DNA of 64,000 bases from Craterostigma plantagineum. Lineage: Eukaryota > Streptophyta > Magnoliopsida > Lamiales > Linderniaceae. Position 1 is the stretch's first letter, and each line of letters begins with the position of its first letter. The position numbers and the translations under genes are program-made. This document shows positions 18,306 through 53,351 of the stretch, piece by piece. The DNA is taken from contig JAPQWV010000028.1 in NCBI GenBank assembly GCA_027422505.1, positions 4,244,001-4,308,000 of the forward strand, given 5' to 3'. The notes under the pieces are model-generated. The model did no database searches. It was not told the origin of the DNA and saw nothing but the letters and a program-made list of their open reading frames with translations.

Positions 18306-18422
18306 AATACTAAGTGTTTTTTTGATTAAATACACCAAAAAAAACCAGCCATTAGTAAAATAAACTAAAAATGGAAAGTATTAATAAAATAGAGAACTTC
18401 GTCATTCCAGATGCCGAGTTAA

Positions 18423-18586
18423 GTAACTCGTCGTCCAGAAAGACGAGTTACTGTCTAGCTGGCCCGCTGACCCGACGTGGCTGGTCAAGTTGACTCGTGC
18501 ACAGTGTAATCAAGTAACTCGTCATCCCAAACGACGAGTTACGTGAATCCCACTAACGTAACTCGTCATCTGGGATGACGAGTTAC
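18423..18586. repeat. left palindromic modules of MULE-1
   Basis: Three 29-bp modules at 18423-18451, 18514-18542 and 18558-18586, each starting GTAACTCGTC and ending GACGAGTTAC. The third is a 13-bp perfect stem with a 3-nt loop. Confidence 0.9.
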
Positions 18587-18632
18587 TCGAATTATTCCCG
18601 ACCAACCTGCATGCGCATGCAGCTTGTCGGAA

Positions 18633-18870
18633 ATAATAATAATAATAACAAAAAATAATAGATATAATAATAGTAATTATAATAAATATAATAATAATAA
18701 AGAAATATAATGATAATAATAATAATATTAAATAATAGATAATAATAATAAATAAATATAATGATAACAATAATAATAAATAATAGTATAATAATAATAA
18801 TAAATATAATAATATAATATAATAATATAATAACAATAATCAAAATAAAAATAAATATAATCATAATCGT
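18633..18870. repeat. AT-only low-complexity tract in MULE-1
   Basis: Almost entirely A and T, built from ATAATAATA-like units. Long Tyr/Ile-rich frames here are artefacts. Confidence 0.85.
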
Positions 18871-19715
18871 CATTACAAACATCGTCCTAAATTTGATTCG
18901 AACGCGCTTAATAGTCATTACAAAAAAAATGTTTGTCATAACATTCTATCCGCCATGATGCGCCAAGTGACCACCGGTCCCACAACGAGCTGGCCTACGG
19001 ACTCTATTTCCTCGACGGTTACCTTGCTCCGCATCATCTGCCGGACTTCGAGGTGCCGCGGTCGTGGTGAAGGTGTCACAAACGACTAAAATGAACCAAA
19101 TTTTAATTTTAGTAAAAAATTTAAGGGCTTCAAATGTAATATAATTTAACGTACCTGATGATCCATATACTCTGGCTGCGAGCCGTGCTGGGCTGCAGAT
19201 GATCGCAAAAAGGGCGACAAGTCCTCGAAGAAAGACGGGTTTACAGCTTCGTGCACTTGTGATGGTCCTGCCTCATGTATGTGAGATGGTCCGGCCTCAC
19301 TGCTTCGTCGAACCCGGCGTCGAGAGATGAACATGTTATCCATCTGCTCGAGTAGACGGATGGACTCGTCATAATCGCCGCCCCTGGCGTAAGTAAGGGT
19401 GTCGTGCACCCCGCGTTCCTAAAAATGAAAGTCGAGTTTATATCAATTGGGCTATTAAATAATAAATAAAATTAATAACATAAATTAAACTTACGATACG
19501 ACATAAACACCGCATCCCCCATCTGAAAGCCCTGCTCCATCTGTCTCGCATGTGGAGATATGTAAAGGCGAGTGATCCGGTGATACCACTGGTAATATCC
19601 ATCCTCCACTGAGGGGAAAGCAGTCGCGGGAGGACCATTAACGACTGTATCCTCTCGATCCTTCCATAACTCAATCCAGTTTGCATGATGCGATCTACAA
19701 TCCATCCCCGATCGC

Positions 19716-20794
19716 TAGGGGTGAGCATTTAACCCGTCGGACCGCCCCACCCAATCGACCCAACCCAACCCAAACCGCAAGTGTCGGGTTAACGGGTCGA
19801 TGGGTTGGTTTGGGTTTGAAAAAATAAAACCGCATATTTTGTGGTCGGGTTTGGGTTTGTATTTTTTTTAAAACCGCATAAAACCGCACCCAACCGCATA
19901 TACTAAGAAAATAATTTTACTACGTATGTTTTATTAAATATTTCATAAAATAGTTGTATCAATAGTAAACTCTTAAATTGTCTAGCTCCGAACGAAGACA
20001 TAAGCTCTTAAATATTTTGAGGTATCCTATTCTTTCTCGAATAGCAAGAGATGTTTTCGCTATTCCAATGTCTACTGTTGCTTCAGAACAAGCCTTTAGC
20101 ACCAGTGGTCGGATACTTGATCCTTTTCGGAGTTCATTAGATCCTAAAACAGTGCAAGCTCTTGTTTGTAGTCAAAGTCGGCTGCGTTCAAAACAATTAG
20201 ATATTGGAGAAATATTAGATGAAATACAGAAGCTTGAGGAACTTCATGATGGTATGGTATTTATATTTCATTTTGAAATTTTTATTGAATATAAATGCAT
20301 TACATTGCTTTATTTTTTTTTTTTTACAGAGGTTTCTGCTTCTACTTCAAATTTGAAGGACGATAGTTGATGTGAAGCCTCAAAACGTAATGTTACTTAT
20401 TCATTTTTTATTAAATGAAAAACTTCTTAATTTGATTTGAAGTACTCATCTTTTTTCTATTCTTAATACAGGAATGTGAGTTATCCGACTTTTGCTTGTG
20501 TTACTTTTGTTTCTTGTTAAGATGACATTATACTACTATAAATATTTTATTTTTGATCCAAGTTTATGATATGTATTTTTCCATTATACTTACTATGGTG
20601 GTTTCTTGTCGTGATAAAAAATATCGAAAACAACCGCAAAAACCGCCCCAACCCAACCGCATTCAAGCAAACCGCAACGTATCGGGTTAAGATTTTTATG
20701 ATCGGGTTTGGGGTAAATTTTCAAAAACCGCAATACATTGGGTCGGGTTGAATTTTCGATAAAAACCGCGCAAACCGCACCGCGCTCACCCTTA
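19716..20794 (+). mobile_element. non-autonomous hAT nested in MULE-1 (hAT-1)
   Basis: An 8-bp TSD, CCGATCGC, lies at 19708-19715 and 20795-20802. Termini are TAGGGGTGAGC and (reverse complement) TAAGGGTGAGC. Both subterminal regions have repeated AAACCGCA and GGGTTTGGG motifs. The element retains only the C-terminal part of a transposase, so it is a deletion derivative. Confidence 0.93.
19978..20370 (+). pseudogene. hAT transposase C-terminal dimerisation domain fragment
   Basis: Encodes LRYPILSRIARDVFAIPMST, then VASEQAFSTSGRILDPFRSS and LDPKTVQALVCSQ: the conserved hAT C-terminal dimerisation region. The N-terminal zinc finger and catalytic core are missing. The C-terminal part after about residue 95 reads into a likely intron (GT after CATGATG, poly-pyrimidine and AG before GAGGTTTCTGC at 20331). 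It cannot be functional alone. Confidence 0.85.
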
Positions 20795-22139
20795 CCGATC
20801 GCTGTCGACGCTCGCACGTATGAAGATTAGTATCTCGATACGGCGGGTTAATGGGAATCCTTGGATAATCCCAAACTGCCGAAGTACTCGTTCTGGATAA
20901 TGAAACTCCACGATATTGAAGAATATCAGTGGACACGTCGAACGACAAGCGCTCGAGCAGCACTCGGGAGGAAGAGCATCAATCTCCGAGAGCGTCATGT
21001 TGTGTGGAGTCCATGCAAATTGATGGGGCTGCATCCGATCAATACACTCGCAGATGGTGCGTACGTTCGAATTCGTCGACGTAGTAAAATCAAAAAATGC
21101 GTTCCACCTGTCAAACATTTACACAACAATTATAAATGTAAGAAGGAAAAATATTCGCAACTAATCCATGACGGACCAAACCTCGCAGCATGTGGCGGAC
21201 TAGGTAAGACTATCCCGTCGACTTCTTGGGGCTCCATCCTGATACGATCAACACCCCGAACTGGCTGAAAAGGCAAGATCCTCACATATGCACATGCCTA
21301 AAACAAATCTCACGGTCTAAATAGCTTTTTAAAATAACTATAAAATTAAAAAATGTTTCTATATAATTACCTGCAACAGCCGTAGGGCTCCGCCAATATT
21401 TAGCTTTTTCGGTTCGCATGCCGAACAAAGCTCTCTGTATAGGAATGGCAGCACCGCACTAACTAAACATCTGCACCTCCTCAATATCCTCCAACAGCTG
21501 AAGGTACGTCAACGATACGGTGCTGGCGCTACAATCGGGGAACATCACCGCACCGAAGAGCAGCATCGCATAACCCCGTGCTGAACAGTCGACCTCTACC
21601 TCATCACTATCATCCGTTATCGGATTATCCAACAACCAACTAGCTAAGGTCTTCATCTACAGCGCCGACCCCTTAATTTTATCATTCGGCGGTCTAAAAC
21701 TTAGCAACCGCTCACACTCGTCTATCCACTGTGTGACCGTCCTCGTATGGATCACCACGGACACACAACTACCATCTATAGGCAAATCCCACAGTATACC
21801 TACATCCTGTAGAGTAACCGTCGCCTCACCAACAAAAAAATGAAACGTATGGGTCTATTTTCTCCAATGCTCTACCAATGCTGTAATCGAATGAGGGTCA
21901 ACCCTTTGTGACATACAGCTGTAGACGCTGTATAGACCCATATCGTTCAACTTCCCTAATAAGCGACCGTGTAAGTGATTCGGTGCTTCTCTCGTACCCC
22001 ACACTATATTTTCTAACGACCTAGTTCTAATAGTACTATATATCGCATTCTCATCCAATAATAAGTCCCTAATACGGTGATTTGACTGCATCGTCATCAC
22101 CGAACTATCAATTGGCCCGTAACAAGCATCCAAGTCCAT

Positions 22140-22733
22140 TCTACAGTCAAGAAAACGAAACCAAACAAATCAACAAAAGAAAATTAACATTCGATAATGA
22201 ATCTATTAATGCAAAAACCCATTAATTTCGTATCGTCAAGGGTCGCTCACCTAACGTAAATCGGCGTAGTACGTCGTCGAGGCGGCGGCGGGGCGTCGGG
22301 TCGCAGCGGGGCGTCAGGTCACGGCACGGCGTCGGGTCACGACGGGGCGGCGGGTCACGGCGGGCCGGCGAGGGGTGGGTCACGGCGGGCCGTCGAAGGC
22401 GGGTCGCGGGGGGGCGTCCGGTCACGGCGGGACAGTGGCTCAGCAGGACTCCGCGGCAGCGGCTCAAGGCGGGGCGACGGGCAGAGGCCGGCCGGCGCGC
22501 GGCGGGGCACGGGATGGCAAGCCGTCGAAGGTGGGTCGCGGCGGGGCTTCGGGTCACGTTATCTCGCGCGGGCAAGGCAGACCCGCGGTTCGTCTTCGTC
22601 GTGGGTTGGGCGGTCGCGTGCAGGCAGGCTCGGAGGATAGCTTTTTCGTCGTCGATGCTTTTCGTCTTCGTCGGCGTCTTCGTCTTCGTCGTCTCGTCTG
22701 TTCGTCTTCGTCGGGGTTTTTAAAAAACAGATC
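22140..22733. repeat. GC-rich minisatellite and CGTCTTCGTC tract
   Basis: 22260-22560 is built from diverged copies of a GGGTCACGGCGGGGCGKCG-like unit of about 17-21 bp; 22590-22720 is rich in CGTCTTCGTC. The Arg/Pro/Gly-rich frames on both strands are repeat translations. The tract lies between the PMD start and the right TIR. Confidence 0.8.
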
Positions 22734-22881
22734 TAACTCGTCATCTCTGATGACGAGTTACGTTTTAATTCGTACTTTGGGGTGACGAGTTACGCCACAT
22801 CACTGCTTTGCCAGCGGGGATAAGTAACTCGTCATCCTGAAAGACGAGTTATGTAACTCGTACTCCCAGAGTACGAAATAC
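22734..22881. repeat. right palindromic modules of MULE-1
   Basis: Four modules at about 22734-22761, 22766-22793 (diverged), 22824-22852 and 22853-22881, with the same TAACTCGTC / GACGAGTTA halves as the left array. Confidence 0.85.
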
Positions 22882-23135
22882 CCTATTTTATTAATTTTTT
22901 TCGTTTCTTGTTTGTTTTGTTAATGTTTAATTTCTTTTTGTTATTTAATTAAAAATACCAATACTAAGCTGAGTTAATCGTATTACTTATTGTCATGGTG
23001 TGATTTCATCAGTCGACAAATCAGTAATTAATATTAATCATGCGATGTATTATGATTGAAGTTTTCGTCAATGACATGATTTAATTGATTACATTAATAC
23101 AACAAAGCAAACTAAAATAGTTACATAGTCTAGTC

Positions 23136-26100
23136 TAGTGGTGGGCTTTGGACTGAATTGGGCCGGTTCTGGGCCGGTTCCGGCGGTTCCGGTTCCACCG
23201 GTTCCGCCGCGGTACCGGTTGCGGTTCCGGTTCCGGTCCCGGGACCATTTTCCCGGGACCGGCCCAGAACCGCACTTAGAACCCCCGGGCCTTTATTGGG
23301 CCGGTTCCGGTTCCAAAACCGGAACCGGCCCATTAATTTTTTTTTTTTTTTACTTTGAAAAAATTTTGTAGAAAATATCCAAAAATTTTATTCAAAAAAA
23401 AAAACAAAAAAAAGATAAGAAAAGTACAAAACAAAAAAAAATACCTAAAAAATACAAATAAAAACATAAAAGAAAGAAAAAAATACCTAAACTAAAACAT
23501 AAAAAAAAAGGAAAAACATTCGAAATTAAAAAATACAATTTATTCGACTTGATTATTAACTAAAACTATATTAGAGGCCTCTTCGTCTTCGTCCGAACTG
23601 AAAGAACGGAACTCGTCGATGGCGTTCTCCCGGTTCTTCGATTCGGCCAAATACCAATCCTTCAATAAGGTGAGCATCGCGAGGGAAGTCGGGTTAAGGC
23701 TCGCTCGTCTGTCGCCGATAATTCGCCCGGATGTAGAGAAGGCGGACTCGGAGGCGACGCTAGACGCTTGCACGGCTAAGACGTCTCGAGCGACGGCGGA
23801 GAGGGTCGGATAGAGAGTCGCGTTCGACTTCCACCGGGCCAAAACGTCGAAGTCTTCAGGAGTCTGGAAGTTGTGGCTCAGGTAGAGCTGGATCTCGTTC
23901 GTGTTCAACCCCGACGCTCGCGTTTTGGTCTTCGTCTTTTGCGCCTTCAATCTTCGTAGTAGTCCCATTGCTCCGCCGCCTCCTTCCGACGAACCGGCTT
24001 CGCTTGCTGGTACCGATTGCTCCACACTGTGTCCCTGCTCAGATGCATAAACAGAAAAAAGTTCTTGGAGAGACGAGTGAATTGACGCCTTTTGGTCGTC
24101 CACTTTCTTTCCAAGAAACTGAGAATAATATTCGAAAAAAATATCGAAAGTATCAACACCGCAACTAGGGTCGAGTAAGACAGACAAACCGTGGACTATT
24201 GGGATTGTTTCCCAATACTTCCTGAACTTCTGCTCTATCTTTTGGATGAAACCACCCAAGTATGGACTGTTGCGATACTCCACGAACTTCTAGCACATCG
24301 CGAAGAGGTTCGGGACGAATAATGGGGACGTCGGGTAGTGAACTCCGGAAAATTTCTCCGTAGCCTCGGCGAACACCTCAAGTATGGACACGACCAAACC
24401 TACAATATCCCAATCAAGTTGTCGTAATTCATACCTGGAGGTGTTGCCGACTGCGACCTCGTTCCAAAAAGGCGTCAACAAGTCCTTGTAGCGCATGAAG
24501 GTGTTGAGGAGGTGGTACAACGAGTTCCACCTAGTCGGGACTGGCAATGGAAACTTCTTGTACGTGAGGCCGGCGGCAAGGACGGTTTGCTTCCACGACG
24601 TTCCGTAGCGGCGTTCCCGAAGTAACTTACCTATTGTCTTAAATTTTTCTACAATATCTCCCAAAATTTCGCCAAAAGCACATTGCACACACAAGTTAAT
24701 AATATGGCAAGCGCACCTAGCATGTAATAATTTGCCGTCTAAGGGTAACTTAAGATGCCTACGAAGGATCCCTATCGCTACGTTGTTCGCGCTAGCATTA
24801 TCTAAGGTGATAGACATAATTTGATCTTGAATACAATATTTATTAACGACATTCAACACATAGTTCGATATCGTAGTGGCGTTATGTTGCGAATCTAGGG
24901 GATCTAGGGAAAGAATACGTTTTTGCATGGTCCATGTTTCATCTATCCAATGGGCGGTGACGACTAAATAAGATTGCGACGTAATGTTAGTCCAAATATC
25001 GGTAGTCAAACTAATCCTATACGTAATGTTGGCTACATGACTAATTAAGCTAGACTGATATTCCTTAAAAGTTTCTAAGACATATTTCCTAAGGGTTTTA
25101 CGGGTCACGTTATGGAATCCGGGTTGTATCGTACTCGTAAATTCGATAAACCCTTCACTTTCCGCAATGCAAAAGGGTTCTTCACACATTACGACGAATT
25201 TAACTAAGGCTTTCTTAGAAATTTTCCTAGTAATAACAAAATTTCTACCCGTACCTACGTTTATTTGTTGTTGTCGGGGTTCGGTTCCTACCGGCTCTAG
25301 ATCCTCCCCGAAGTTATGCGTCCTCTGGAGGTGTTTTTTCAACGAGCCCGTCCCACCTTGATTCGGTCCGGTCTTAATTGTGTAGGGATGGCGGCACATT
25401 TTGCAATATGCGGTACCTACAGAGGGATTATTTTTATCCATTTCAAAATCAAAAAAATTCCATACCTTAGACCGCCGACCACGCGGTTGTTGCTTCCTTT
25501 TTGTAGTCGCCGTAGAAGCTTGGCTCGGTCCCTCGTCGGTCGCCGCGGTCGGTTCCGGTACATCGGTCTCCTCGTCGGTGTCGGCATTCCCCCTAAACGT
25601 ATCGGCGTGTCCTAAAATCATAAAAACATCGTCGCTCGGGTTCGGGTTAGGATTTCTCGATGACGACGCCATTAGTACTTTAAAAATATCGAAAATAATA
25701 ATTATATTGGTGTATAATAATAAGTGAGTGTGTGTAGTAGTGTAAATAAAATAATTATTATTGTTAATAATATTAAATATTAATATGAGGATGATTTTTT
25801 GAGAGTTTTTTGAGAGAGATTGGAAGAGATTTGGATGTAATTGTGAGTTAAAATGATTAAAATGAGGTGGTATTTATAGATTTTTGGGTTGGAGTTAAAA
25901 TTGTAATTTTTTAGTGTTTAAAAAAAAAATAAAAAAAAAATTGGATGGCCCGTTGGCCCAACGGCTATATAGCCGTTGGGCCGGTTCCGGTTCCGATTCG
26001 GAACCGGAACCGGAACCGCGGAACCGGAACCGGTAATCCGCGGTTCCGAGTTCCGCGAACCGGCCCAGTTCGTTTTAACTGGGCCGGTTTACCGGTTCCG

Positions 26101-26189
26101 GAACCGGGCCAACCGATTCCGGTTTGGGCCTGTTAAACGGGCCGGATTTGGGCCGGTTCTGGGTTGGACCGGCCCAAAGCCCAGGTCTA
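23136..26189 (-). mobile_element. hAT element with near-full transposase (hAT-2)
   Basis: An 8-bp TSD, GTCTAGTC, lies at 23128-23135 and 26190-26197. Termini: TAGTGGTGGGCTTTGG at the left and, reversed, TAGACCTGGGCTTTGG at the right. Both subterminal regions are dense in GGTTCCGG/CCGGAACC repeats, the usual layout of hAT transposase-binding regions. It carries one transposase gene on the minus strand. Confidence 0.95.
23540..25672 (-). pseudogene. hAT transposase, one in-frame TAG
   Basis: Residues 1-460 (25672-24293) and the rest (24289-23540) are in the same frame, separated by a single TAG at 24292-24290 (FAMC-stop-KFVEYRNS). Domains in order: low-complexity N-terminus; a BED zinc finger (KVWNFFDFE, CKMC, HLQRTH, about residues 67-120); catalytic core with SLTTDIWTN, ITLDNASANN, RCACHIINL, PTRWNS; C-terminal dimerisation region FDVLARWKSNATLYP and SSVASESAFSTSGRII. 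Total about 710 codons, normal for plant hAT transposases. No other disruption is visible, so inactivation looks recent. The stop could be a polymorphism, a sequencing error or be read through. Confidence 0.92.
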
Positions 26190-26197
26190 GTCTAGTC

Positions 26198-26430
26198 GCA
26201 GCCTATATCAGGCTTCGAAATAACTGAACTAACACACAAATAATTATAAATGACGTCTAATTACAAACCTGGACATGTGCCGTTAAATTAGACTAGTATT
26301 TTTCCCACTCAAATAACTATCCATGGAAAAAGTTAATGGGTGATATTTATGTAATTTTATTAGTTAAAGTTTTTTAGTTAAATTAAATTGGAAGATCAAT
26401 CACGTACCGTGATTGCGGGGTCCTACAACA
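26198..26430. other. spacer with an orphan LTR-like fragment
   Basis: 26399-26430 is a 32-bp identical match to the LTRs of the 32-45 kb array (ATCACGTACCGTGATTGCGG, then GGTCCTACAACA), directly beside the solo LTR target site. The rest is AT-rich and holds nothing I recognise. Confidence 0.7.
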
Positions 26431-26435
26431 GTTTA

Positions 26436-28497: not shown

Positions 28498-28502
28498 GTT
28501 TA

Positions 28503-32659: not shown

Positions 32660-32810
32660 ATCTGTGCGTAACCCTATGGTGCCTTTCAATCCCAATGCGG
32701 TACACACTGAGAGGCTACCAGTGCCTTTCAATCCCAGTGTGATCCACACTGAGAGGCTACTAGTGCCTTTTAATCCCAATGCAGTCCCATTGAGAGGCTA
32801 ACCCGGGCAC
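32660..32810. repeat. short tandem repeats in array LTR-1
   Basis: Three to four diverged units with GTGCCTTTCAATCCCARTG and CACACTGAGAGGCTA. Equivalent copies lie at 37838-37978, 43044-43184 and, in opposite orientation, about 60860-61000. Confidence 0.85.
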
Positions 32811-35317: not shown

Positions 35318-35334
35318 TCCTCCCCCCTTAAAAG
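35318..35334 (-). other. polypurine tract, unit 1
   Basis: On the minus strand, CTTTTAAGGGGGGAGGA directly precedes the TGTAATACCC start of LTR-1, the expected position of the plus-strand primer. Confidence 0.9.
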
Positions 35335-36005: not shown

Positions 36006-37137
36006 TTAATCGGTTAGGAGGGTACCTTCCGTCTCGGATGGATTGTTTTCTGCTTCTTCCGCTGTAAGCATGTATACCCGAGCAGGGGCCGTCAGCGGCT
36101 TAGCCTGGTTTGCTCCCTGACTTCCAGATGCATTCTCTGGGCACACTACGGAGTAGTGGCCTGCCTTGCCACATTTAAAGCAAGTGGAGTTTTGGGAGAA
36201 ACAGACGCCTAGATGACGTCGTGCACATTTTGGGCATACGGGTGCATTCGGTTGGGGTCTCCCCTGATTCGGATTTGTTTGTTGAGGTGGTCGAGGGCGG
36301 TTTTGGAAATTGGATTTCACATTCTTAGGAACAAATGGTTTCTTCGGGTTATTTCCGTTCCCTTTGGGTCCTTGTTCGAATTTTCTTTTAATCTCCTGGG
36401 CTCGTACAATTCTGATTTCGGCTTGCTCAGCCATCAGGGCTCGTTCCGCCATTTGGGCATAAGTAGCCCCTTGGAGTCCAGCCATGCCAACATCACGGTA
36501 AAGTTCTGGCTTCAAGCCCTCCATAAATCGCTCAATCTTCAGCGTATCCGTACTTACCATGTGGGTTGCAAATCGAGACAACTGTTCGAACTTTCGAATA
36601 TACTCCGCCACCGTCATTGCTCCTTGGCGGAGATTGATGAACTCGTTCATCCTTTGGGCTCGAACGGGAGCAGTGAAATACTTGCCTCTGAAAATTCTTT
36701 GAAGCGCTCCCAAGTCATTGTTATCGGATCTTCGAGAGTCAGGATCGTGTCCCACCAGTGGCCGGTGCTTCCCTTTAATAGGTACCCAGCGCACAAGGCC
36801 TTTTCGGTTTCAGGGGTACGATATGACTATGTTGGAACATAGTTTCTAGGGTTCGAAGCCAATCCTCAGCCGAGGTTGGGTCAAGAGCATCTTCAAAGGT
36901 TGGGGGGTTAAGTTTGCGAAATCTCTCTCCGACCATTTCGATTCTGTCGGGCTGAGGGGGTCCGTTACTTGATTGCCCGCCAGCGTTTTGTTGTTGAATT
37001 AGTTGCTGAATTTGGGCAGATTGTTGGCGGACTAGTTCCGCGAGTTGGAGAATAGTCGCATCTCGATTATCAGCAGGGGTTGCGGGTTCCTTACCTTTAT
37101 CTGCACCCCCACTATTCTCATTTCTTGTCCTACCCAT
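36006..37137 (-). pseudogene. Ty3/gypsy gag, unit 1, frameshifted
   Basis: The N-terminal part starts at 37137 (MGRTRNENSGGADKGK), with coiled-coil-like LAELVRQQSAQIQQLIQQQ and RKLNPPTFEDALDP. The retrotransposon gag domain follows (GKYFTAPVRAQRMNEFINLR, MTVAEYIRKFEQLSRF), then a CCHC zinc knuckle CFKCGKAGHYSVVC, and a stop at 36006. Relative to the third element, a 5-bp insertion after FQHS (about 36828) shifts the frame; a second 1-bp loss near 36690 is private to this unit. Gag forms the virus-like particle of LTR elements. The product stops before any protease, so the unit depends on other elements for mobility. Confidence 0.9.
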
Positions 37138-37276: not shown

Positions 37277-37288
37277 GCTCTGATACCA
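37277..37288 (-). other. primer-binding site, unit 1
   Basis: On the minus strand, TGGTATCAGAGC, complementary to the 3' end of plant initiator tRNA-Met, 2 nt inside the 5' (middle) LTR end. Confidence 0.9.
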
Positions 37289-37290
37289 CC

Positions 37291-40522: not shown

Positions 40523-40539
40523 TCCTCCCCACTTAAAAG
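40523..40539 (-). other. polypurine tract, unit 2
   Basis: Same position as in unit 1 with one substitution in the G run. Confidence 0.85.
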
Positions 40540-41210: not shown

Positions 41211-42343
41211 TTAATCGGTTAGGAGGGTACCTTCCGTCTCGGATTGATTGTTTTCTGCTTCTTCCGCTGTAAGCATGTATACCCGAGCAGGGGCCGTCAG
41301 CGGCTTAGCCTGGTTTGCTCCCTGACTTCCAGATGCATTCTCTGGGCACACTACGGAGTAGTGGCCTGCCTTGCCACATTTAAAGCAAGTGGAGTTTTGG
41401 GAGAAACAGACGCCTAGATGACGTCGTGCACATTTTGGGCATACGGGTGCATTCGGTTGGGGTCTCCCCTGATTCGGATTTGTTTGTTGAGGTGGTCGAG
41501 GGCGGTTTTGGAAATTGGATTTCACATTCTTAGGAACAAATGGTTTCTTCGGGTTATTTCCGTTCGCTTTGGGTCCTTGTTCGAATTTCCTTTTAATCTC
41601 CTGGGCTCGTACAATTCTGATTTCGGCTTGCTCAGCCATCAGGGCTCGTTCCGCCATTTGGGCATAAGTAGCCCCTTGGAGTCCAGCCATGCCAACATCA
41701 CGGTAAAGTTCTGGCTTCAAGCCCTCCATAAATCGCTCAATCTTCAGCGTATCCGTACTTACCATGTGGGTTGCAAATCGAGACAACTGTTCGAACTTTC
41801 GAATATACTCCGCCACCGTCATTGCTCCTTGGCGGAGATTGATGAACTCGTTCATCCTTTGGGCTCGAACGGGAGCAGTGAAATACTTGCCTCTGAAAAG
41901 TTCTTTGAATCGCTCCCAAGTCATTGTTATCGGATCTTCGAGAGTCAGGATCGTGTCCCACCAGTGGCCGGTGCTTCCCTTTGATAGGTACTCAGCGCAC
42001 AAGGCCTTTTCGGTTTCAGGGGTACGATATGACTATGTTGGAACATAGTTTCTAGGGTTCGAAGCCAATCCTCAGCCGAGGTTGGGTCAAGAGCATCTTC
42101 AAAGGTTGGGGGGTTAAGTTTGCGAAATCTCTCTCCGACCATTTCGATTCTGTCGGGCTGAGGGGGTCCGTTACTTGATTGCCCGCCAGCGTTTTGTTGT
42201 TGAATTAGTTGCTGAATTTGGGCAGATTGTTGGCGGACTAGTTCCGCGAGTTGGAGAATAGTCGCATCTCGATTATCAGCAGGGGTTGCGGGTTCCTTAC
42301 CTTTATCTGCACCCCCACTATTCTCATTTCTTGTCCTACCCAT
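41211..42343 (-). pseudogene. Ty3/gypsy gag, unit 2, frameshifted
   Basis: Same architecture as the unit 1 gag. The N-terminal 132-codon frame (42343-41945) and the 263-codon frame (42002-41211) overlap because of the shared 5-bp insertion. The second frame is otherwise continuous from MCAEYLSKGSTGHWWDT through the gag core to the CFKCGKAGHYSVVC knuckle and stop. The shared insertion shows that both units descend from one already frameshifted parent, in agreement with tandem duplication rather than two insertions. Confidence 0.9.
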
Positions 42344-42482
42344 CGTTCTTTTATCCTAATGTTCCTAAGATCAATCAGCCATGTAATACAAGAAGTTCAT
42401 AGAAACATAAAACTTACAAGCAAGGCCGCTTCCGTGCTTTTGAGTGTGTGTACATGGACAGTCTGCAGAACCTATATCCTAA

Positions 42483-42494
42483 GCTCTGATACCA
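42483..42494 (-). other. primer-binding site, unit 2
   Basis: TGGTATCAGAGC on the minus strand next to the LTR-3 end. Confidence 0.9.
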
Positions 42495-42496
42495 CC

Positions 42497-45295
42497 TGTG
42501 GCAGCCCCGCCTTCACCACTATTTCTTAACTAGTCTACGCGACTAATATCGTAATAATAAAATAAATTGTGCGAAATTTCGGATAAAATTTTTCCTTCTA
42601 TAAAAAGGAATCGTAAAATTGTCTACAAAATCATCCTGGGTCCTATTTACATAGGAAAGCGCGCATGCGGGTCAAAATAAATTTATCTACTGGGCCTCCA
42701 CGAGGTCGCATCCATGCACACACTTCCATCTCAAAAGCCCCCGGAAGCTTCAAAAGTCGGCCTCGCCTTGAAAATGATCACGTACCGTGATTGCGGGGTC
42801 CTACAACACATAAAACGTGGAATGAGCTTATAAAGCTTAGTAAGTGAAAACCATGCATGAAATGCACGTGACCTAAATAGCGAAGGCATCCGCGCCAATG
42901 CTATTGACCTCTCGTATCCTTCTCGTTCTTTTCATTTTTTATTGGGCCCTCGACTTTCAATCTTACTATGCACCATATAGAGCTCAAACCCCTAAGGGTA
43001 TAAGTGGCAGTACACACACTGGGAGGCTAAACCCGAGTACTCCATCTGTGCGTAACCCTATGGTGCCTTTCAATCCCAATGCGGTACACACTGAGAGGCT
43101 ACCAGTGCCTTTCAATCCCAGTGTGATCCACACTGAGAGGCTACTAGTGCCTTTCAATCCCAATGCAGTCCCATTGAGAGGCTAACCCGGGCACACAAAT
43201 TTCGTTTAACCCTAAGGTGCCTTTCCATCACAATGCGGTCTGACACGCGGGCGCTTCTCACTGGTAGCTTACTGCAAGGTCGCCAACACTCGAGGTTCCC
43301 TCAGTGTCGCTCATACCCTCGAGTCGCATCCTCCAGGTTGCATCTCCCGCTACGGGGTATTCCCCCTACCTTTCGTGAATCAGGTAATTCGGTTTCGTGA
43401 ATCGTCGTGGTAGCATAGAAGAGCCGTGACTCGTCATTGAGTCGACATAAACGACCATATCGGCAAATATACATATCGCTTTCAAGCGAACTTATACACA
43501 TGCACGCTACACGCTATCTCCCTGACTCTCATACTAGTCGTGCGTGCACATGCTCATGCCGTGAGTATGCGTGTCATGTCATCGTATAACGTAATTAAAT
43601 CACGTAAGAACTCACAAAAATCATATAAGCACATAGACACGTCACATAAAATCATAAAAGCACATAACACATAATTTCATGCACATAAAAATTATGTGTT
43701 GTAGTTGCGATTTCCACTTACCTGGTATCCTTAGCTACTTAGCTTATCGTACTTGTCAATTGCTAACATTCAAACCCTAAGTATAGAAACATATAAAATT
43801 AGGATTTGTTAGTCTAATTATAATTTCACTAAAATGGCTTAATTTAGAAAACCCTAGTTTCGACTTTTATAAATTTCGAAACCCTAAAATTTAGAACTTT
43901 AACCTAAACTGAGAAATACTATTATTATAAATCTCAGCATGAATTAAGATATATCTCGACATGGATTAAAATAGATCTCAATATAGCCTAAATCTCGACA
44001 TTGTAGGTACAAGATTCCGATATGTGTCTTTGAAATTATAATTTAATATTATAATCGTAATCCTAGAATCTCGATACAGTTATAAGTTCTCAAGCTTAGC
44101 GGTGAAATAAGATCTCGACATAAGACATACAATGATTTCGAGATTCTACTAAGGATGCATTTCGAGATTGTTCTTAAAATGAATTGTCGAGTTTTGACTA
44201 TGGGATTTCGAGCTCTTTCACAATAATAGATCTCGACATTATCTATATAATACTAACATGAAATTCGGCATAAACCTCGATATGAATTGTGATCTCGACA
44301 TATGCAAAGATTTCGACACAAATCCTCAAGATAGATCTCGATATTATACACTCAAGGATTTCGATGCTACATAGACCCGATATAATACATGAAATGATTT
44401 CGATATTACACATAAAAGCTTCGATATTTAAACTAGTCAATACACGCTGATCTAGGCATGAACTCGAGGTTATATATATATCGAAATGATAACATGTCGA
44501 GATTACATGTTGAAACTATAACGAATTGTCGATATCAATATAACTCGAGATTCATCCTACCAATTTACTTGACTCTGAAATTCATAACTTGGGGAATCAT
44601 ATTACCACTGAAATACCCTACAGAATTCGTCCAAGTTCATGTAACATAATGGTCTTCTAAGAGTACAAATGACATGAGTGGTTATATTAATATTTATCAT
44701 ATCTTAATTATTATGTTAGGTTTTCGATATACATAGAAACCCTATATTCCAAGTTTCGAAATTCTAGTATTTCAAGATTTTCTATTTGATCTCGAGTTTT
44801 AAATATTTTAGACCTTCAAGATTTCGAGCTTCATTATTTCGGTTCCAAGACTTCGAGATTTACATGTATTATAAAATTTCTTCTTACTCTTTTGAGACTT
44901 TCATAAATTCGTCATCCTTATTTCGATACCTTATAATTTCGATATCATACTTAGAAAACCCTAATGTTCACAAACTCCTCTTGTCTAGTTTCGATTCCTA
45001 CCCAGGTAAATGTTAATTATTTTCCTAAGTTAGAATTCTTCATAGCACGTAATTAATTCACCATTTAAAATTTTCCACATCCTACGTTCATCACTTAAGT
45101 CATAATTCGTAGCACACATAGTCATAAATCACACAGCATGAAATCATAGAGACACGTAAGTCTTTTAAGAACATAAAGGTATAAAAACATTGCATCAATC
45201 AAAGTCCTAATTTCTTATTTAATTAGTTCAATGAAATTTCTAATTTATTGCTAATTGAGTCATAAATCCCGTAATTAAATTTTACGGGTATTACA
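42497..45295 (-). repeat. array LTR-3 (5' LTR of unit 2), 2799 bp
   Basis: Same LTR with an internal deletion of about 430 bp near 44661, relative to about 39462-39890 in LTR-2. Ends are intact; TSD ATAAA follows at 45296-45300. Confidence 0.92.
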
Positions 45296-45300
45296 ATAAA

Positions 45301-45799
45301 CCAAGCAGATCCTCAACCTCAGAAACATAAAAAATGTTTAAGAACATGTTCACAGAACCTCAACCTCAGAACAACATATCAGTCTCAACAAGTCTAAAAT
45401 CTTACTAACATAGATAATATCATTCATACAAGTGGAACATAAACCCACAAGGATCTATAAGTATTGTGGAAGCCATGGAGCAACGATATGCTTCGACTTC
45501 GACATCATCAAGATACCTTCTACAATCTGTAGGTCCGACGATGTATTTATCCATGGACATTGCAACATGTACGCCGCAATCCATGCCCTCCGGATTCTTC
45601 TCCCTCGTCTACATAAAAATATAATGAATTTACAGTACCAAAAACCATGAACAAACATTACCAATTCAATTAATATACGGTATCAAGACAACAAACAATT
45701 AAATTACGACGACGAAAAATAAAACTCTAATTTAAGTCCTAAACCCCAAATTGAAGCACTAATCAAAGAAGTTAACATTAACTCCAAATGCCAAAAAAT
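45301..45799. other. interval with a possible protease-like fragment
   Basis: 45455-45615 on the minus strand reads, in one frame, NPEGMDCGVHVAMSMDKY and EAYRCSMASTILID, which recalls the catalytic-Cys region of Ulp1-like proteases, without any His/Asp part. The call rests on a few residues only. 45700-45800 is a diverged duplicate of 46190-46320. Confidence 0.3.
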
Positions 45800-46023
45800 T
45801 ACCGATGAGCCCTTAGCTCTACTGGTTGAGGGGGAGGTGCCTGGAGTCATGTTGGGAGAGGTCCTGGGTTCGAACCTCCACCCTGTGACATTTCTCCAGG
45901 CCTGCCCACATGGGCCCAGACATGTGCGATTGACCTGGTCGACCCGTTTAGCAGGTAGTGGGTCGGCCCCGGGGTTTCACCATCGGCTTTCCCCGGTTAC
46001 AAAAAAAAAAAAAAAAAAAAAAA
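45800..46023 (+). mobile_element. tRNA-derived SINE
   Basis: The 5' part has a tRNA-like A box (TAGCTCTACTGGTTGAG) and B box (GGGTTCGAACC), followed by a non-tRNA body and a terminal poly(A) of about 25. A 14-bp TSD, AAATGCCAAAAAAT, lies at 45786-45799 and 46024-46037. Length of about 220 bp is normal for plant SINEs. The TSD and poly(A) fit LINE-driven insertion; the A/B boxes imply a Pol III promoter. Confidence 0.92.
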
Positions 46024-46037
46024 AAATGCCAAAAAAT

Positions 46038-47079
46038 CAAAAAATTTAAAAAAAAAACCAAACTTACAGTTGAAACGTGCTCGCTCACTCTCGTTCAACA
46101 GAGGTGTTGGAAAATGAAAACTTGCACGTTCGCTCATCCTCTGTCTCGAAACCCTAATTTGAAAGATATCAAAATCCCAAATCGAACACGAAAAATAAAA
46201 CTCTAATTTTAGCCCTAAACCTCAAATTCGAGCACTAATCAAAGAAATTAACATTGCCCTGGAATCCTTGAAGAAATGAACCTATCGAAGCCGTAAGCTC
46301 TACATTAACCCCAAATGCCAAAAAAATAATAAAAAAAACACAAACTTACAGTCGAAACTTGCTCTCTCTGTCTCGTCTCGTTTTCTTCTCGACTCGTTCT
46401 CTGTCTCGTCTCGTTTTCTGTCTCGTTCTCTACCTCGTTCTATCGTTCTCTGCCTCGTTCTATCATTCTCCGCCGCATTCTATCATTCTCTGTTCTTATT
46501 TCGATCGTCCACTGTGAATGAAAGTGAAAAAAGAGAGGGTTCGGGTGTTCAATGGTTTAATGGTTGTTTGGTAATATTGTTGGTTTTATAAGGCTAAATT
46601 GTCCATTAGGTAGGTATATGATATAAAAGTTTGACGTGGGGAGTTTGATGATAAATGAATTGGAAGGAGGGAGTTAATTGATGGATAGTTTGGGTATAGG
46701 GATTTATGTGTAGATTTACCATGTATAAGTGTATATAGATATTAATTGTAAACCGCCAATTATTTTTTAGGATTTGAAATCAATATTTATGTGTAGGATA
46801 AATCTCTTATCGTCATAGGAGTTCAATAAATAAGTAAATAGCATGAGATGGCGAATACACAAGAATTCACGTGTCAGTCATATAATGAATAACTCATCAA
46901 TTAGCAGCAGCATGGCACGAATAACCATGCGACAAGATTAGATTAGATCGTACGCAACGCACTGCCTATATACATGCCATACAATCTCTTGAACTTCTTC
47001 CCCATATTGTTTCGGTTCTTGTTATATTATTTACACAACATATGCATCGTATGTTGCTACAAGAAAAAAAAATTTATAA
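46038..47079. other. duplicated flank and upstream region of the 47 kb gene
   Basis: 46040-46390 contains two diverged copies of a segment (CAAACTTACAGTYGAAACKTGCTC) that also matches 45700-45800. 46370-46500 repeats TCTCGTCTCGTTYTCT. A TATATA at 46967-46972 lies 108 bp before the ATG at 47080 and is a fair TATA-box candidate. Confidence 0.5.
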
Positions 47080-47740
47080 ATGGCGTCCGTTGAAGAACCA
47101 ATGCTCTCGAGGCTCAACCGACTCGACAGAATTGTAAGGCATCGTAACTCCTTTTTCTTTTATATGTTGGGACTAATATTTTTTTTTTATCGATTATACG
47201 TTTAATAATGACGATGATGATGTTCATCAGCTGAAGCAACTCGAAGAGATAAAGAGCGTGAGCTACTACTACTCACCAAAAAGCTCTGCGTCATACGCAT
47301 CATCAAGTGACGTCACACCATTAGCCGATGACGTGTCACCACGAAGCGCCCTTGAGAAGGAGAATATGGTACTACGGTGTTATCACCGTCCGATGAGTGA
47401 GGTGATGATGGAAGTTGAAGAAAAGGGCACTTTACTCGAAAGATTAGTACATGCCGAGGATCGTATTTTGAAGGTAATATACTTTACTCGTACTAAAGTT
47501 AAATAATTCTATATATATATATATATATGTGTGTGTATATTGGATTTGACATGGATACTGTCTCTGTAGATGTGTTTGCATTTAGAGGAAGAGTTGGAGT
47601 CCGAGAGGAGCAAAGAGCTTCTGCATCTTGATGAGAAGAATGTAGCAATGAAGAAGAAGGAGAAGAAATTGCCTTTCAAGAAATTAATGAAATCCTTAGC
47701 GGGAAGGAAAGAGGACATTCACAATAATAAAGATGATTAA
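47080..47740 (+). CDS. plant-specific conserved coiled-coil protein, 155 aa, three exons
   Basis: Exons 47080-47133, 47231-47473 and 47570-47740; both introns are GT-AG and phase 0, giving 155 aa. The N-terminus is EEPMLSRLNRLDRILKQLEE; the conserved core is CYHRPMSEVMMEVEEKGTLL followed by ERLVHAEDRILKMCLHLEEE; the C-terminus is Lys-rich (KKKEKKLPFKKLMKSLAG). I recognise this as a small uncharacterised family of land plants, but know no function. Leucine/Glu heptad-like segments suggest coiled coils; no signal peptide or membrane helix is seen. All exons are open and splice sites canonical, so it looks functional. It stands alone, 168 bp upstream of the MULE-2 insertion. Intron 2 contains a (TA)n tract. 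Confidence 0.85.
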
Positions 47741-48129
47741 TTAATGTATATCGTTGTGTAAAGTTATATTTCGAGTTTGGACTTTATTCTCTCTTTCGTT
47801 ATACGTTGGAAAGTTTGTGTTGATCTCGAGTTATTGTAGTGTGATCGGTTGCTTAGAACGTTAATGTTTTTGGAGATTATACGGTCGTCTATCGTGTAAT
47901 ATATTTTAGGAAATTAATATTCACCGTCCCTTTTACTGTTAGTTGTTACCGCCATCTATGGACTGTAAAAAGACGATTTTGTCCTTATGATATTTAAATT
48001 AATTTAAAAAGAAAAACTAACGTCTATATATAATTTTGGTACGAAATACTGAAAACTAAATACACAAATAAATTCGAACGATCTTCGGTAATGGATCGAA
48101 ACGAGGTAACAGAAAAAAAAAATTCAATT

Positions 48130-48375
48130 TAACATTTTAGGGCTGATCGATCGATATTTTCGGCCCTGCAGTGCACGGGCCTAACGAAATTTTCGGCCAG
48201 CCTGTTTACGGGCCGATCGATTTTTTGGGCCAAAACACAGCCCGACCGAAAAAGCCGTTCGGCCCTGCAGTGTACTGGCCCATCGGTATTTTCGGCCCTG
48301 ACAGGTCTGGCCGAAAAAATCGATTGGCCAGTACATTGCAGGGCCGAAAATTTCGATGGCCCGCTGCACTGGTAA
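48130..48375. repeat. left TTTTCGGCC array of MULE-2
   Basis: At least seven TTTTCGGCC / GGCCGAAAA occurrences in both orientations with CCTGCAGTG-type spacers, able to fold into several stems. Confidence 0.85.
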
Positions 48376-48423
48376 ACAGTACGCGTCCGATACATAAACG
48401 AAACATAAACAAAATAATACACA

Positions 48424-51400
48424 TCATGAGGCCTGGCGCCACCGGTCGTTGAGCTCGTCGAGTCTCTCTCTGAACTCGTCCATGGGCGGATAGGTGTCCA
48501 GACGCATCCTAGCTAGCATATCGCTAGTCAAGATGTACATCGAGCTGTGCCACTGTACATAGAAATAATACATATAAAAAGTGACTAAACATATAAATAT
48601 AACAAATAGAAATAAGATTAAATTACATACGTAGTCAACGTGGCTGCGTGGGGGTATGCCGCCCGGGATCCCAATTCCGGAAAGCAGGCGAGGATGAGAA
48701 TGCCGCTGATACCAGTCCATGTACCCTTGAACGGTTTCACCAAGGTACTCCGCGGCGGCCCGGTTGATGTACGAGGTTAAGGATGTAGGCGTACGGGAAC
48801 TGACGCCAAGCATGTTCTGCTGAACTGGCAGAATAGTCCACCTTATACCTCGTCGGGTCTGCTGGCATGACCGCTTTCTGTGGCGGACTCATCGGTGGCG
48901 GGATGACCTGCACGTACCCCAGCTGGCGCAATGTAATACCCGTAAAAATTTAATACGAGATTTTGATAATCAACTATGAAATGATATGAATTAGGAAGTT
49001 TGGCAAAGAAAATATAAGTTTTAGAAACTTTGAAATAAATTGAATACTTTAATAAAAGATGTTTTCGGCTTTCTATATATTATATCTCCTCCAAAGTTTA
49101 CGAGTATAAGTATATATTATATCGTAATTGATCGAACGGCAAAGAGTTTTTAATGTTTCGTGGGAAGCTTCTACAATTATCTGATTATTTATAAGGAATA
49201 GATAAGGATATACATAGAAATATATTATTATAGCACATGGGGAGCGATTCCTATTCTTAACCAAAGAGGAAAGAGACGAAACTTTTAGGGAAAGAAGAAA
49301 AACTCAATCAAATTAGCTATAGAACCTAACGTGGAGTAGGTATGCTCTCAATCACCATCTTGATAATTTATTATATAGTGCTTGTTTTATATGATCTTTC
49401 CATGTTGATGTGAATGTTTTCGAAATGAGAGATAGGTGAATTTGCACCAATACACAGTAAATCTCATGTGATAAATATGTTAATGGTTGTGTACGTGATA
49501 ATCATAGGAACTTTCTGTGATTCATATGTTGTGTGATTTAACGTTAGTTATGAGAATTAGGTAATAATAGATCAATGATTGTTAGACATTGGAAGAGTTA
49601 GATGCATTTGGAAACCCTAATATTGAATTTAAATATATGCTATTATATTTATGCTAAGTGTGGTAGGTTTGTAAAGAGGTTTACGACATGAGATAAAGTT
49701 TTCACATCCACCATATAACATGCACATGCCTTAGAATATTTTTATTACTAATTGCATAGTTAAACGATAAGGGTGGTTATGGGAAATAATAAAATATCAT
49801 ACTTAAGAGAATAATGCACTTACTTACTAGAGGAAAAGAACGCATCACCTATTCGTCACCTTCTTGCCTTTTCACGTTACCCAACATGTAGAGACACATC
49901 CATGATCTATATATAAATTTATTAAGCCTACACTAAACGAAAATAATAGAGAGGAGAAAGCATTTTATGGAAGAACAGAGAGTATTTCGTATTCAATAAG
50001 TGAAGGAAAGAGGAAAACTTTTAAAGGGGGACAAAGGAGAAATCGTCGAGAACCTTGGAAATGAAGTTTTGTCCATAAGAACGTGTGTCTTCTTTGTTTT
50101 AGGTATGATAATCTATGCTTTGCCAAATATAAATTAATATATATTCATATATAAATCAGATTTCCATCAAACTTGAGCAAACTCACCACATGATCATGTA
50201 TAAGTCATGCTCCATAGTATATCAAGTTTACATGGAGATATTGTTTCCTTAACATGAAATCAATGGGTACTGGGAACATTTTATTAATAGTAATGTAGAT
50301 TTTAACTAATCCTGTCATGTTTTAATAATACTAGGGAAACTAATTAAGGCCATGTTGACATGTATGTGAGTATATACATGCCTATACAATGGTTGAGATC
50401 ATGACTGGAAATATTGGTATAACAAGGTTAGAGACGACAATACTTGGGAAATTCTGGCAGTTCGTAGGAGTCGTGTTGAAAGAGTATACGTCGATAGCGT
50501 AACCTCGGACGTCAGGTAGGTGAAACTCACCTACGGCACGTAAACGCTATGTTAAATATTATGTGATATTACATGATTATCTGATTATGTGGATTCTGTG
50601 AATTATGTGTCTTGGCGAATTACGTGTTTTACGTGTATTATATTTGTTGCGCATCATATGTACATTTATTGCATGTTCTATGTACATTATCTGCACTGCG
50701 CATGCATAGCACGTCAGTGCGAGGTTGAGCACCGTATAAAAAGATGACATTTTGCTTTAATATTGAGCGGTGTATCGATTTAAGTTAGATTTGAGGTTAG
50801 TATTGGGATCTTAGATGGTAGTGGGCAATGAGGCGGTGTGAGGTCTCAAGTGCGACGGGTTGGCGTGACCGGTGCGTGAGGCCTGGAGCGTGTGTGACTC
50901 AAGTGCGTCAGGCCGGTGAGTGTCCGGTACGTGAGGCTTGGGCCGCGGTTCAGGTGCGTCAGGCCGGGAAGCGTCAGTGCGCGTGGCTTGAGGTCCTCTG
51001 TGTGATAGGTTGAGATGAGATGAGATGTGATGAGATGCGAGAAAAGAGTTGAGCGTGCATTTGTGAGGTGTGTCGGGATTGGGATGTGAGAGCACGTGCA
51101 TTCATGCATGTTTCATCTACTGGGCAAGGAGCTCAGTTTACGTGCTGTAGGTACATGCGAGTCCGGTGTTGATACGCGTCGCGACTAGGCGGGCTGATGG
51201 TGGTGACTCCACGGACTTTTGAGGGCAGGGCGGTACATGGGACGCGACCTGTGAAACGAGTTTATGTTTCGTGTTTTTAAATTTGGGCTAGGACTTCTTG
51301 AGCTTCGGCCCAATGAATAGAAATGTGTTTGGTTTTGGACCTATGGATTTAGACATTTAACGTATTTGTATTATTATGTTTTAAAAGTTTTAATTAAATG

Positions 51401-52628
51401 GGCTTTCCGCTGCTTACGCTGCGAAAATCCGCCAAAATACGTATCTAGGAAGTCGGGTCGTTACACGCAACACTCTCGAGGGTGCGTAGGGCTCAACAAT
51501 ATCGCGATATCTAACCCAACCCATCGAAAAGCGTCCTCGGGTGCTGCGACACTGGATCGGGACCGTACGGCAGCCAAGCAACCTGATAACAATTCACAAT
51601 TTTTAAATAATTGTCACAAATATGGAATATAAATTGTTGAGATACCTCGCTTGCAGTCATGATATCTATCTGACGGCAGATCTCAACCAAACGATTCACC
51701 GTCTTCTCGTGTTGAGATACAGACCACATGCGTGATCGTGCCTGGCCAGGCTCCACATGGTGGGGGAGACGGTGTAGGCGGAAGCATGGGAAATACTCGT
51801 AGATCCACGCCTGTAGTAACGAGAGGCACCCAGCTACACCCCTCACATCCGCCCTGCTTGCGAGGCCAAGCTGGCAATAAAGGTACGCAAGTGTGGACGA
51901 TCCCCACAAGTACTGCCTGGCAAAGGCCAACGGGCGGTAGAACTCGTGCATGATGTTGGGCTTCACACGGGTCCCGCTCTTGTCGACCAACAGCGTCGAC
52001 CCCAAGAGAATCCACAACTAAGCGATGGCCTGGAACCCCGCCGGCCGACCCCCCCTCCCCGCATCCTCTGCATCACGTCTTTCATCAAAACCCCACTGTT
52101 TTTCCAAGAACTCCTCAACGCGTCTGCGGAGATGCCCATTATCTCCCTCGTCGCGATCTGCCCATCGGCGACGTCTAGGGTGCCCGATACCGTCGCCCCG
52201 TCGATCGGGATACCTAGGATCTGCTCGACGTCGTGGAGCATGATCGTCATCTCCCCGAATGGCATATGGAAGGTGTTCGTGTCGGGCTGCCAACGCTCCA
52301 CAAAAGCGCACAGTAGAGGCTGGTCCAAGTGACCCATCATGGCATCTGTGAGGTGCCCAAGCCTTGTGACATCGATCTGGCGCTGCGTCTCCGACGGGAA
52401 TTGGGAGTACCAATTCTTAAGCTTCCCAACCACTAATGCCCGCTGCTCGCACCTCAGCAGGGGCCTCTCCTGCTCACCCATCCAGATGCGGGGCGCGATG
52501 TGCCCCAGATAACTAGGGATCACCTCGTCATCATCTGGACCACCGGGCTGTGGCCCCTGCACCCTCCAGGAATCGTCATCTATGACCCTGGAGCGCTTGC
52601 TCACTATTTCATTTTTACGATAACGCAA
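48424..52628 (-). pseudogene. plant mobile domain (PMD, MAIN-like) protein, decayed and split
   Basis: The 5' part (52628-about 52030) has RVIDDDSWRVQG, RLGHLTDAMMGHLDQPLLCA, then FHMPFGEMTIMLHDVEQILG-IPIDG, the PMD signature. It loses frame in a G-rich run near 52045; the continuation WILLGSTLLVDKSG, FYRPLAFARQYLWGSS and LQAWIYEYFPCFR is open at 52017-51640. After removing the solo LTR and one TSD the frame runs SRVLRQLGYVQVIPPPM, then ends with RWRQAS at 48424. The frameshift plus the LTR make it a pseudogene. A likely intron lies near 51640-51560. PMD relatives MAIN/MAIL1 act in the nucleus in silencing and genome stability; whether TE-borne versions help the element is unknown. Confidence 0.82.
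48932..51465 (+). mobile_element. solo LTR, 2534 bp, nested in MULE-2
   Basis: Begins TGTAATACCCGT and ends GGGTCGTTACA; 5-bp TSD CGCAA at 48927-48931 and 51466-51470. Related in ends and internal motifs to the 26436 solo LTR. Carries GTAGGTG-AAACT-CACCTAC near 50517-50535, GTGCGTCAGGCCGG-like repeats at 50860-51000 and a CTGGGC...GCTCAG stem at 51120-51136. Excision in silico restores the PMD reading frame. Confidence 0.94.
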
Positions 52629-52834
52629 AAATAAATTTAATTTCTTTTACGTATATTAAGACATGACATCGCATGTCAATTAAATTTTTTTTCTCCGTCA
52701 TCGCATGTCAATTTATAGAGGAGAAAGATACTTACCTGAGGATCTACTGCTACCTCCGGGTAGGGACTTCCCACCCCTGGTCTGCAATTAAATATTTATT
52801 AAAAAAATAATAATAAAGAGTCGAACAAGATATT

Positions 52835-53035
52835 CGGCCGCCTATAGAGGCGGCTGAAAATAATTTTCAGCCGGTGCAGTTCCGGCCGGTTGGTGTTATC
52901 GACCGGCGAAGCACCGGCCGATCCGAATTTTCGGCCCTATCATGCACGACCGAAAAAAATTTTCGGCCGCCACAAGGCACGGCCGAAAGTATTTTTCGGC
53001 CGTGCCATGTGCCGGCCCAAAAATTCGTTCGATCG
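52835..53035. repeat. right TTTTCGGCC array of MULE-2
   Basis: Mirror of the left array: repeated TTTTCGGCC and GGCCGAAA motifs plus CCGGCCGGT-type stems inside the right TIR. Confidence 0.82.
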
Positions 53036-53351
53036 GGACTTTCTCAAACGATTCCGACCCGTGTTCGATAATTCTTCTACGTACGAACGATTTTTACGAG
53101 AATTTGCTTACCAGTCGTGCGAATAGACCCTTTCCTTTCCCCTGTCCCCGTCGTCGATCCAATGCGATTTGAGTTTTTTTTGTTTTGTTTGAGTCTGATT
53201 TGGAAGTGTGATTGCGATATGGAAAGTGTTGTCTGGAAAAGGGCTTTAAATAGAATTTTTTATTCAAAATGACAAAATCGTCTTTTTATCGTCCATTAGG
53301 GGGCCGTGACTAGGAAAATTGGAGCGATGAATAGTAATCCAGTATATTTTA

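Follow-up and report, generated by a model that had tools for sequence, protein, structure and literature searches.

Two Mutator-like elements (MULEs), here called M1 and M2, lie in a 64,000-nt stretch of the Craterostigma plantagineum genome (contig JAPQWV010000028.1, positions 4,244,001 to 4,308,000; hereafter the window). Each contains the remains of a PMD gene (PF10536) and, just inside both ends, an array of short motifs in opposite orientations. A hAT transposon (hAT-A) lies between them, and a second one (hAT-B) is nested in M1. The coordinates are collected in Table 1; the literature is cited from excerpts.

Two MULE copies with PMD genes and subterminal arrays

The 9-bp target site duplications (TSDs) that mark MULEs are exact in both elements, and both have the long terminal inverted repeats (TIRs) of this class in imperfect form, with arms of 133 nt and 71% complementarity in M1 (together with an end-to-end alignment) and of 52 nt and 75% complementarity in M2. 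In a Pfam scan, two minus-strand pieces per element exceeded the PF10536 gathering score of 34.9 bits: 21660-21854 (1.7e-12) and 20795-21118 (2.9e-14) in M1, and 51966-52646 (8.7e-19) and 51514-52017 (9.2e-17) in M2. A third minus-strand piece of M1 (21462-21656, 0.0022) remained below the cut-off. Both genes are dead, that of M1 through in-frame stops and the nested hAT-B (8-bp TSD CCGATCGC, at 19708 and 20795), that of M2 through a frameshift, a stop and a solo long terminal repeat (LTR). No MULE transposase domain was detected in the stop-free stretches of at least 60 aa that were scanned (15 of the 29 in M1 and 13 of the 29 in M2), and the elements are therefore at most non-autonomous. The sequence-only reading had described 9-bp TSDs, a minus-strand PMD gene and no transposase in each element, and all of this was confirmed. 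The two PMD genes fall in two separate PMD clades, and M1 and M2 may, tentatively, be regarded as defunct members of two distinct non-autonomous MULE families.

Further parts of the genes are less certain. The candidate C-terminal exon of M1 gave no domain in the Pfam scan and contains EAGPSHIHEAGPSQVHEA, which resembles the 9-aa repeats of Sesamum relatives. The candidate 3' part of the M2 gene likewise gave no Pfam match; by-eye comparison of translations would place its stop at 48424-48426, approximately 50 bp from the left array. A probable PMD exon appears to lie downstream of the right array of M2, which may itself be within intron 1. GC-rich 18-bp tandem repeats occupy 22286-22574, upstream of the M1 PMD gene, and TGTAATACCCGTAAAAATTTAATACG at approximately 26436 resembles the beginning of the solo LTR in M2.

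Table 1. Positions of the elements, genes and arrays in the window
Feature	Position	Strand	Evidence and remarks
M1, non-autonomous MULE copy with PMD gene and hAT insert	18315-22959		TSD, imperfect long TIR, PMD pieces
M1 left TSD, AATACTAAG	18306-18314		identical to 22960-22968
M1 left array	18395-18586		four 28-nt modules (one degenerate) with half-sites GTAACTCGTC/GACGAGTTAC
Probable C-terminal exon of M1 PMD gene	19149-19418	minus	translation
hAT-B, nested in M1 PMD gene	19716-20794		TSD and TIR; Dimer_Tnp_hAT 1.8e-21
M1 PMD gene remnant	20795-22140	minus	PF10536 pieces, translation; in-frame stops
M1 right array	22734-22881		four 28-nt modules, one half-site eroded in two of them; aligned with left array in long TIR
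M1 right TSD, AATACTAAG	22960-22968		identical to 18306-18314
hAT-A, between M1 and M2	23136-26189		TSD GTCTAGTC at 23128/26190; zf-BED, Dimer_Tnp_hAT; hairpins
M2 left TSD, TATATTTTA	47900-47908		identical to 53343-53351
M2, non-autonomous MULE copy with PMD gene, solo LTR inside	47909-53342		TSD, imperfect TIR, PMD pieces
M2 left array	48143-48371		12 GGCC; 10 of 11 gaps 15-17 bp, one 33 bp; TTTTCGGCC/GGCCGAAAA
Probable 3' part of M2 PMD gene, with intron	48427-48888	minus	open reading frame; by-eye likeness to relatives
Solo LTR within M2 PMD gene	48932-51465		TG..CA; 5-bp TSD CGCAA at 48927/51466
M2 PMD gene remnant	51514-52646	minus	PF10536, translation; frameshift and stop between both pieces
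Probable upstream exon of M2 PMD gene, TRGGKSLPGGSSRSS	52738-52782	minus	AG/GT borders; translation, by-eye comparison with relatives
M2 right array	52833-53035		8 GGCC; 4 of 7 gaps 16-17 bp, others 32, 32, 48
M2 right TSD, TATATTTTA	53343-53351		identical to 47900-47908

Each end of M1 carries four 28-nt modules, eight in all, made of GTAACTCGTC and its complement. Five pairs retain both half-sites with no more than one mismatch each, and in every one of them the two starts are 19 bp apart; in the remaining three modules one or both half-sites are eroded. At the left end, 108 bp separate the terminus from the start of the first complete pair, and at the right end 107 bp. Left and right modules can be aligned as parts of one long, eroded inverted repeat. 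In this alignment the modules are better conserved than the spacers (90/113 vs. 110/169, p 0.011), a modest value that is to be read with the caveat that aligning palindromes favours modules. The GGCC array of M2 has a unit of 33 bp and starts about 235 and 307 bp from the element ends, outside the clear TIR.

Hairpins (perfect stems of at least 8) were counted in 600-bp ends and compared with 300 dinucleotide shuffles. The left and right ends of M1 contain five and four, and the right end of M2 three, each number being reached by none of the shuffles; the single hairpin of the M2 left end was matched by 23 of 300, so that this end is not distinguished by hairpin count. Perfect stems in M1 and M2 extend up to 13 bp. 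Inverted 8-mer pairs exceeded all 500 shuffles at all four ends, narrowly so at the M2 right end (16.5 against a shuffle maximum of 16.0), where the value for direct pairs was reached by 3 of 500 shuffles. A chance origin of the arrays is rejected on these comparisons. The palindromic clusters that had been claimed for each end are confirmed, everywhere in terms of inverted 8-mers and at all ends but the M2 left end in terms of hairpins. Across the window, the nine of 212 sliding windows with at least three hairpins all fall at the ends of M1, M2 (right only) or hAT-A, and the top seven windows for inverted 8-mers are likewise ends of these three elements. By inverted 8-mers, the M2 right end is outranked by four 600-bp stretches outside the described transposons, which start at 59401, 38701, 59701 and 33601 and take ranks 8, 10, 11 and 12.

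The motifs are specific to their families, as had been proposed: with one mismatch allowed, that of M1 occurs 12 times in M1 ends, never in M2 ends and once in hAT-A ends, whereas that of M2 occurs 16 times in M2 ends and in neither of the others. The arrays are not echoed as a coding repeat in the proteins of relatives: the 11-aa period that would correspond to M2's 33 bp is absent from the 15 top-ranked short-period proteins of at least 90 aa (240 proteins fetched), and most of these 15 have a 9-aa coding repeat. Such C-terminal 9-aa tandem repeats (EAGPSNVYN type) are seen in the Sesamum relatives P0192, P0176 and P0168 of the PMD-1 clade; VANC proteins too have repeat-rich variable regions (PMC5735166). 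The arrays are very probably sites for some element-encoded protein.

Arrays in the hAT elements

The sequence-only reading had combined palindromes and PMD genes into the suggestion that the PMD protein recognises the element ends or protects the element. hAT-A is instructive in this regard. It has an 8-bp TSD, a BED-finger hAT transposase that is nearly intact, with an in-frame stop at 24290-24292, and very densely packed palindromic CCGGTTCC/GGGCCGG arrays within both ends, whose 3 and 10 hairpins were reached by 1 and 0 of 300 shuffles. A PMD match is absent from its two transposase open reading frames (ORFs), which occupy most of the element. Since this element follows the plan of the two MULEs although no PMD was found in it, arrays alone are no pointer to PMD, and arrays specific to PMD elements are ruled out. 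The subterminal repeats of hAT-B are direct and form no hairpins (AACCGCA, 10 of the 15 window copies lying in the two 300-bp ends). In this window, DNA transposons carry arrays within their ends whether or not they have PMD. Outside plants, 10 of the 12 mosquito MULE families with long TIRs have subterminal tandem repeats (PMC5225508), and PMD is described as restricted to angiosperms (PMC8616336); together with hAT-A, this refutes the argument from exclusivity. The arrays of hAT-A and Muta1 resemble those of M1 and M2 as element-specific motif clusters within both ends; they differ in that no PMD gene is found or, in the excerpts, mentioned, and they are presumed to be transposase sites.

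PMD, VANC and their elements

It is not striking that one window contains two PMD MULEs, because PMD is common in plant MULEs: it is present in most members of several groups, and in VANDAL half of the members have PMD and/or a DUF that is left unnamed (PMC6446971, Table 1). M1 and M2 share the combination of a MULE with a PMD gene, and the 9-bp TSD where it is stated, with MUDR, MUDRAVI2, MDR and monocot groups (PMC6446971), and the same combination with the PMD-C fusions of grasses and Amborella (PMC5418596). In contrast to these, they have PMD alone with no transposase found, and the excerpted descriptions of PMD-bearing plant MULEs mention no arrays. The relatives with the best scores for PMD-1 are all in Lamiales (Paulownia, Phlomoides and Sesamum). 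Many of the best matches come from one genus each: Sesamum provides 41 of the 120 relatives in one list (best 120 of 166) and Chenopodium quinoa 33 of 120 in the other (best 120 of 232). In viral and genome contig collections, 15 and 32 pattern matches to PMD loci were obtained, none of which is a relative. PMD occurs both as a host gene and as a gene of transposable elements (TEs), and a captured host gene fragment is what defines a Pack-MULE. MULEs are reported to have captured PMD-C twice, and a TE anti-silencing use was speculated upon in this connection (PMC5418596) and repeated in a paper that calls PMD a domain of unknown function (PMC8616336). The role that the sequence-only reading took to be undescribed had thus already been suggested for TEs in print.

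For relatives of both PMD genes, structure prediction gives a fold like that of DNA-bound VANC21 (9lnj), so that the DNA-binding fold of VANC21 is assigned to PMD as a prediction from relatives. In the VIA-align lists, VANC21 alone covers the PMD fold and nearly all other rows concern C-terminal helices, the absence of other families from these lists proving nothing. On these models, it is highly probable that PMD and VANC share a fold. Pfam scans also touched DUF1985 below the cut-off in 13 of 53 (A2) and 15 of 49 (A4) PMD proteins, with best E-values of 2.7e-4 and 1.9e-4, respectively, the members being related and the sets overlapping so that the counts are not independent. The only other family matched by more than two members, weakly, was DUF7745 (10/53 and 6/49), which may be a third branch of a common superfamily. 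When ten proteins were scanned singly, five had DUF1985, each time within the PMD match, as did P0128. Both PMD alignments, despite the low hhalign probability given below, place their YSWG motif on FLWG of the two-sequence DUF1985 profile. VANC proteins carry DUF1985 and DUF287 domains (PMC5735166). The PMD pieces of the window match PF10536 and not DUF1985 at the Pfam cut-off, and by Pfam definition PMD of M1 and M2 is outside the VANC family. The predicted P0186 protein of Mikania micrantha is annotated with PMD and Peptidase_C48, which parallels VANC-Ulp1 fusions, as VANC genes with an Ulp1 domain exist (PMC13317346). No published link between PMD and VANC was found in a literature search seen in excerpts, in which the 9lnj paper was not found either; the link may be in print elsewhere.

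The window itself has a minus-strand DUF1985 ORF (2080-3009, 4.3e-17), which matches the VANC21 chain in PDB at 1e-10, and a minus-strand Peptidase_C48 ORF (4315-4716, 1.3e-7). As judged from these matches, the two are apparently remnants of a VANC/Ulp1-type gene, around which no clear array was seen in 1-8000. Elsewhere in the window, Ty3-type gag was detected by Pfam at 36009-36809, and 41211-42355 and 61654-62058 look alike by eye; the first two lie in similar stretches approximately 5.2 kb apart, with the same hairpins at 35334 and 40539.

In the anti-silencing system of the VANDAL MULEs of Arabidopsis, VANC21 binds YAGTATTAY and VANC6 another motif, and the motifs, which vary from family to family, are arrayed in noncoding DNA that includes introns of VANC genes (PMC5735166, PMC10398659). 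M1 and M2 resemble these VANDAL systems as MULEs with a second gene of the same fold (predicted for PMD) and with short motif arrays in noncoding DNA that differ among families; such element-specific noncoding arrays are found in hAT-A as well. By analogy, a VANC-like system would be expected to consist of a MULE that encodes a VANC-fold protein and has family-specific arrays in the noncoding DNA around that gene. The differences are also clear. M1 and M2 carry PMD where VANDALs carry DUF1985, and their arrays are palindromic and near the ends or in the TIR, whereas TIRs are missing or short and degenerate in VANDALs. Moreover, the M1 and M2 copies are broken and have no transposase that could be found. 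Known VANC motifs and the DOWN motif do not serve as their array units: CATGCAGTTT and AGTTGTAC are absent, AGTTGTCC occurs once, and the eight scattered copies of YAGTATTAY include none in the arrays and one (50325) within the solo LTR of M2.

Possible roles of the PMD gene and the arrays

Our favoured explanation is that each family carried a PMD gene together with its own short motifs, set in opposite orientations in noncoding DNA inside both ends. We infer that each intact PMD protein would have bound to its own family's arrays, probably with a dimer or oligomer occupying the phased inverted half-sites, and that this binding would have kept the family unsilenced, such that a transposase could act in trans. 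As a whole, this explanation is plausible and somewhat short of probable. The same tentativeness applies to the narrower statement that PMD itself reads the arrays, which becomes slightly probable when a reading in which transposase and PMD share the sites is included. The suggestion that PMD recognises or protects its element is thus encouraged by the VANC21-like fold predicted for relatives, whereas the palindrome-based argument that first led to it fails.

Several observations weigh against PMD as the reader of the arrays. The structural match to VANC21 is remote (identity of 9-11%, TM-scores of 0.34-0.49), and the models represent relatives rather than the broken window genes. A PMD profile did not recover VANC21 among PDB sequences, and hhalign with the VANC/DUF1985 profile gave a probability of 2%, this profile being only two sequences deep because the window DUF1985 protein had no homologues at 1e-5. 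The non-independence of the DUF1985 counts is to be added, and a common fold is not a common function. The M1 arrays are inside a long TIR, where transposase sites would be expected as well, hAT-A is built on the same plan, and known VANC arrays are described in the excerpts as tandem repeats, with no mention of palindromes. Finally, Arabidopsis MAIN and MAIL1 act for silencing, which is the opposite outcome. These proteins share PMD, and the genes that depend on them have a common promoter motif: 25 of the 26 genes jointly down-regulated in the PMD mutants have it (PMC7156037, PMC9899485). They differ from the PMD genes of M1 and M2 as host genes that promote silencing, and whether they touch chromatin was left open (PMC9899485).

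It is also conceivable, if somewhat doubtful, that the arrays are subterminal repeats bound by the transposase and that PMD is an accessory gene that serves another purpose and has no contact with the arrays. Transposase binds Mutator TIRs (PMC3310237), the M1 modules lie within the TIR, hAT-A combines the densest arrays with its own transposase and no PMD found, and the hAT-B repeats and those of the mosquito families fit the same pattern. However, such an account leaves unexplained why PMD is predicted to resemble in fold an array-binding MULE protein and why PMD and a DUF co-occur in VANDAL elements, and the distance of the M2 arrays from the element ends, beyond the clear TIR, is at odds with it. 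An improbable compromise is that transposase and PMD use the same arrays, PMD opening the chromatin where the transposase assembles; the position of the arrays near the ends (in M1, in the TIR) and the predicted VANC fold agree with this. Least probable is that the palindromes form foldback or hairpin DNA or RNA, as a source of small interfering RNA or a by-product of replication, with no specific binder and with PMD as captured host cargo in the manner of Pack-MULEs, for although the perfect stems and the capture of genes including PMD by MULEs (PMC5418596) speak for it, a hairpin needs neither the fixed half-site spacing of M1 nor the phasing of M2, the motifs are element-specific, and the prevalence of PMD in several plant MULE groups (PMC6446971) exceeds occasional cargo.

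The boldest reading, again plausible and somewhat short of probable, is that PMD is a sequence-specific DNA-binding domain homologous to VANC; the PMDs of MULEs would then form a second widespread anti-silencing lineage that co-evolves with its own palindromic arrays, and MAIN and MAIL1 would be part of this DNA-binding family. Plant meristems, gene expression and transposon silencing all depend in some way on PMD proteins, and with the predicted VANC21 fold, DNA binding by PMD becomes a directly testable question, for which the transposon's own arrays are a first probe. Should the reading hold, sequence-specific anti-silencing would be a general second gene of plant MULEs and not confined to VANDAL elements, and a silencing factor of the host would share one fold family with a transposon anti-silencing factor.
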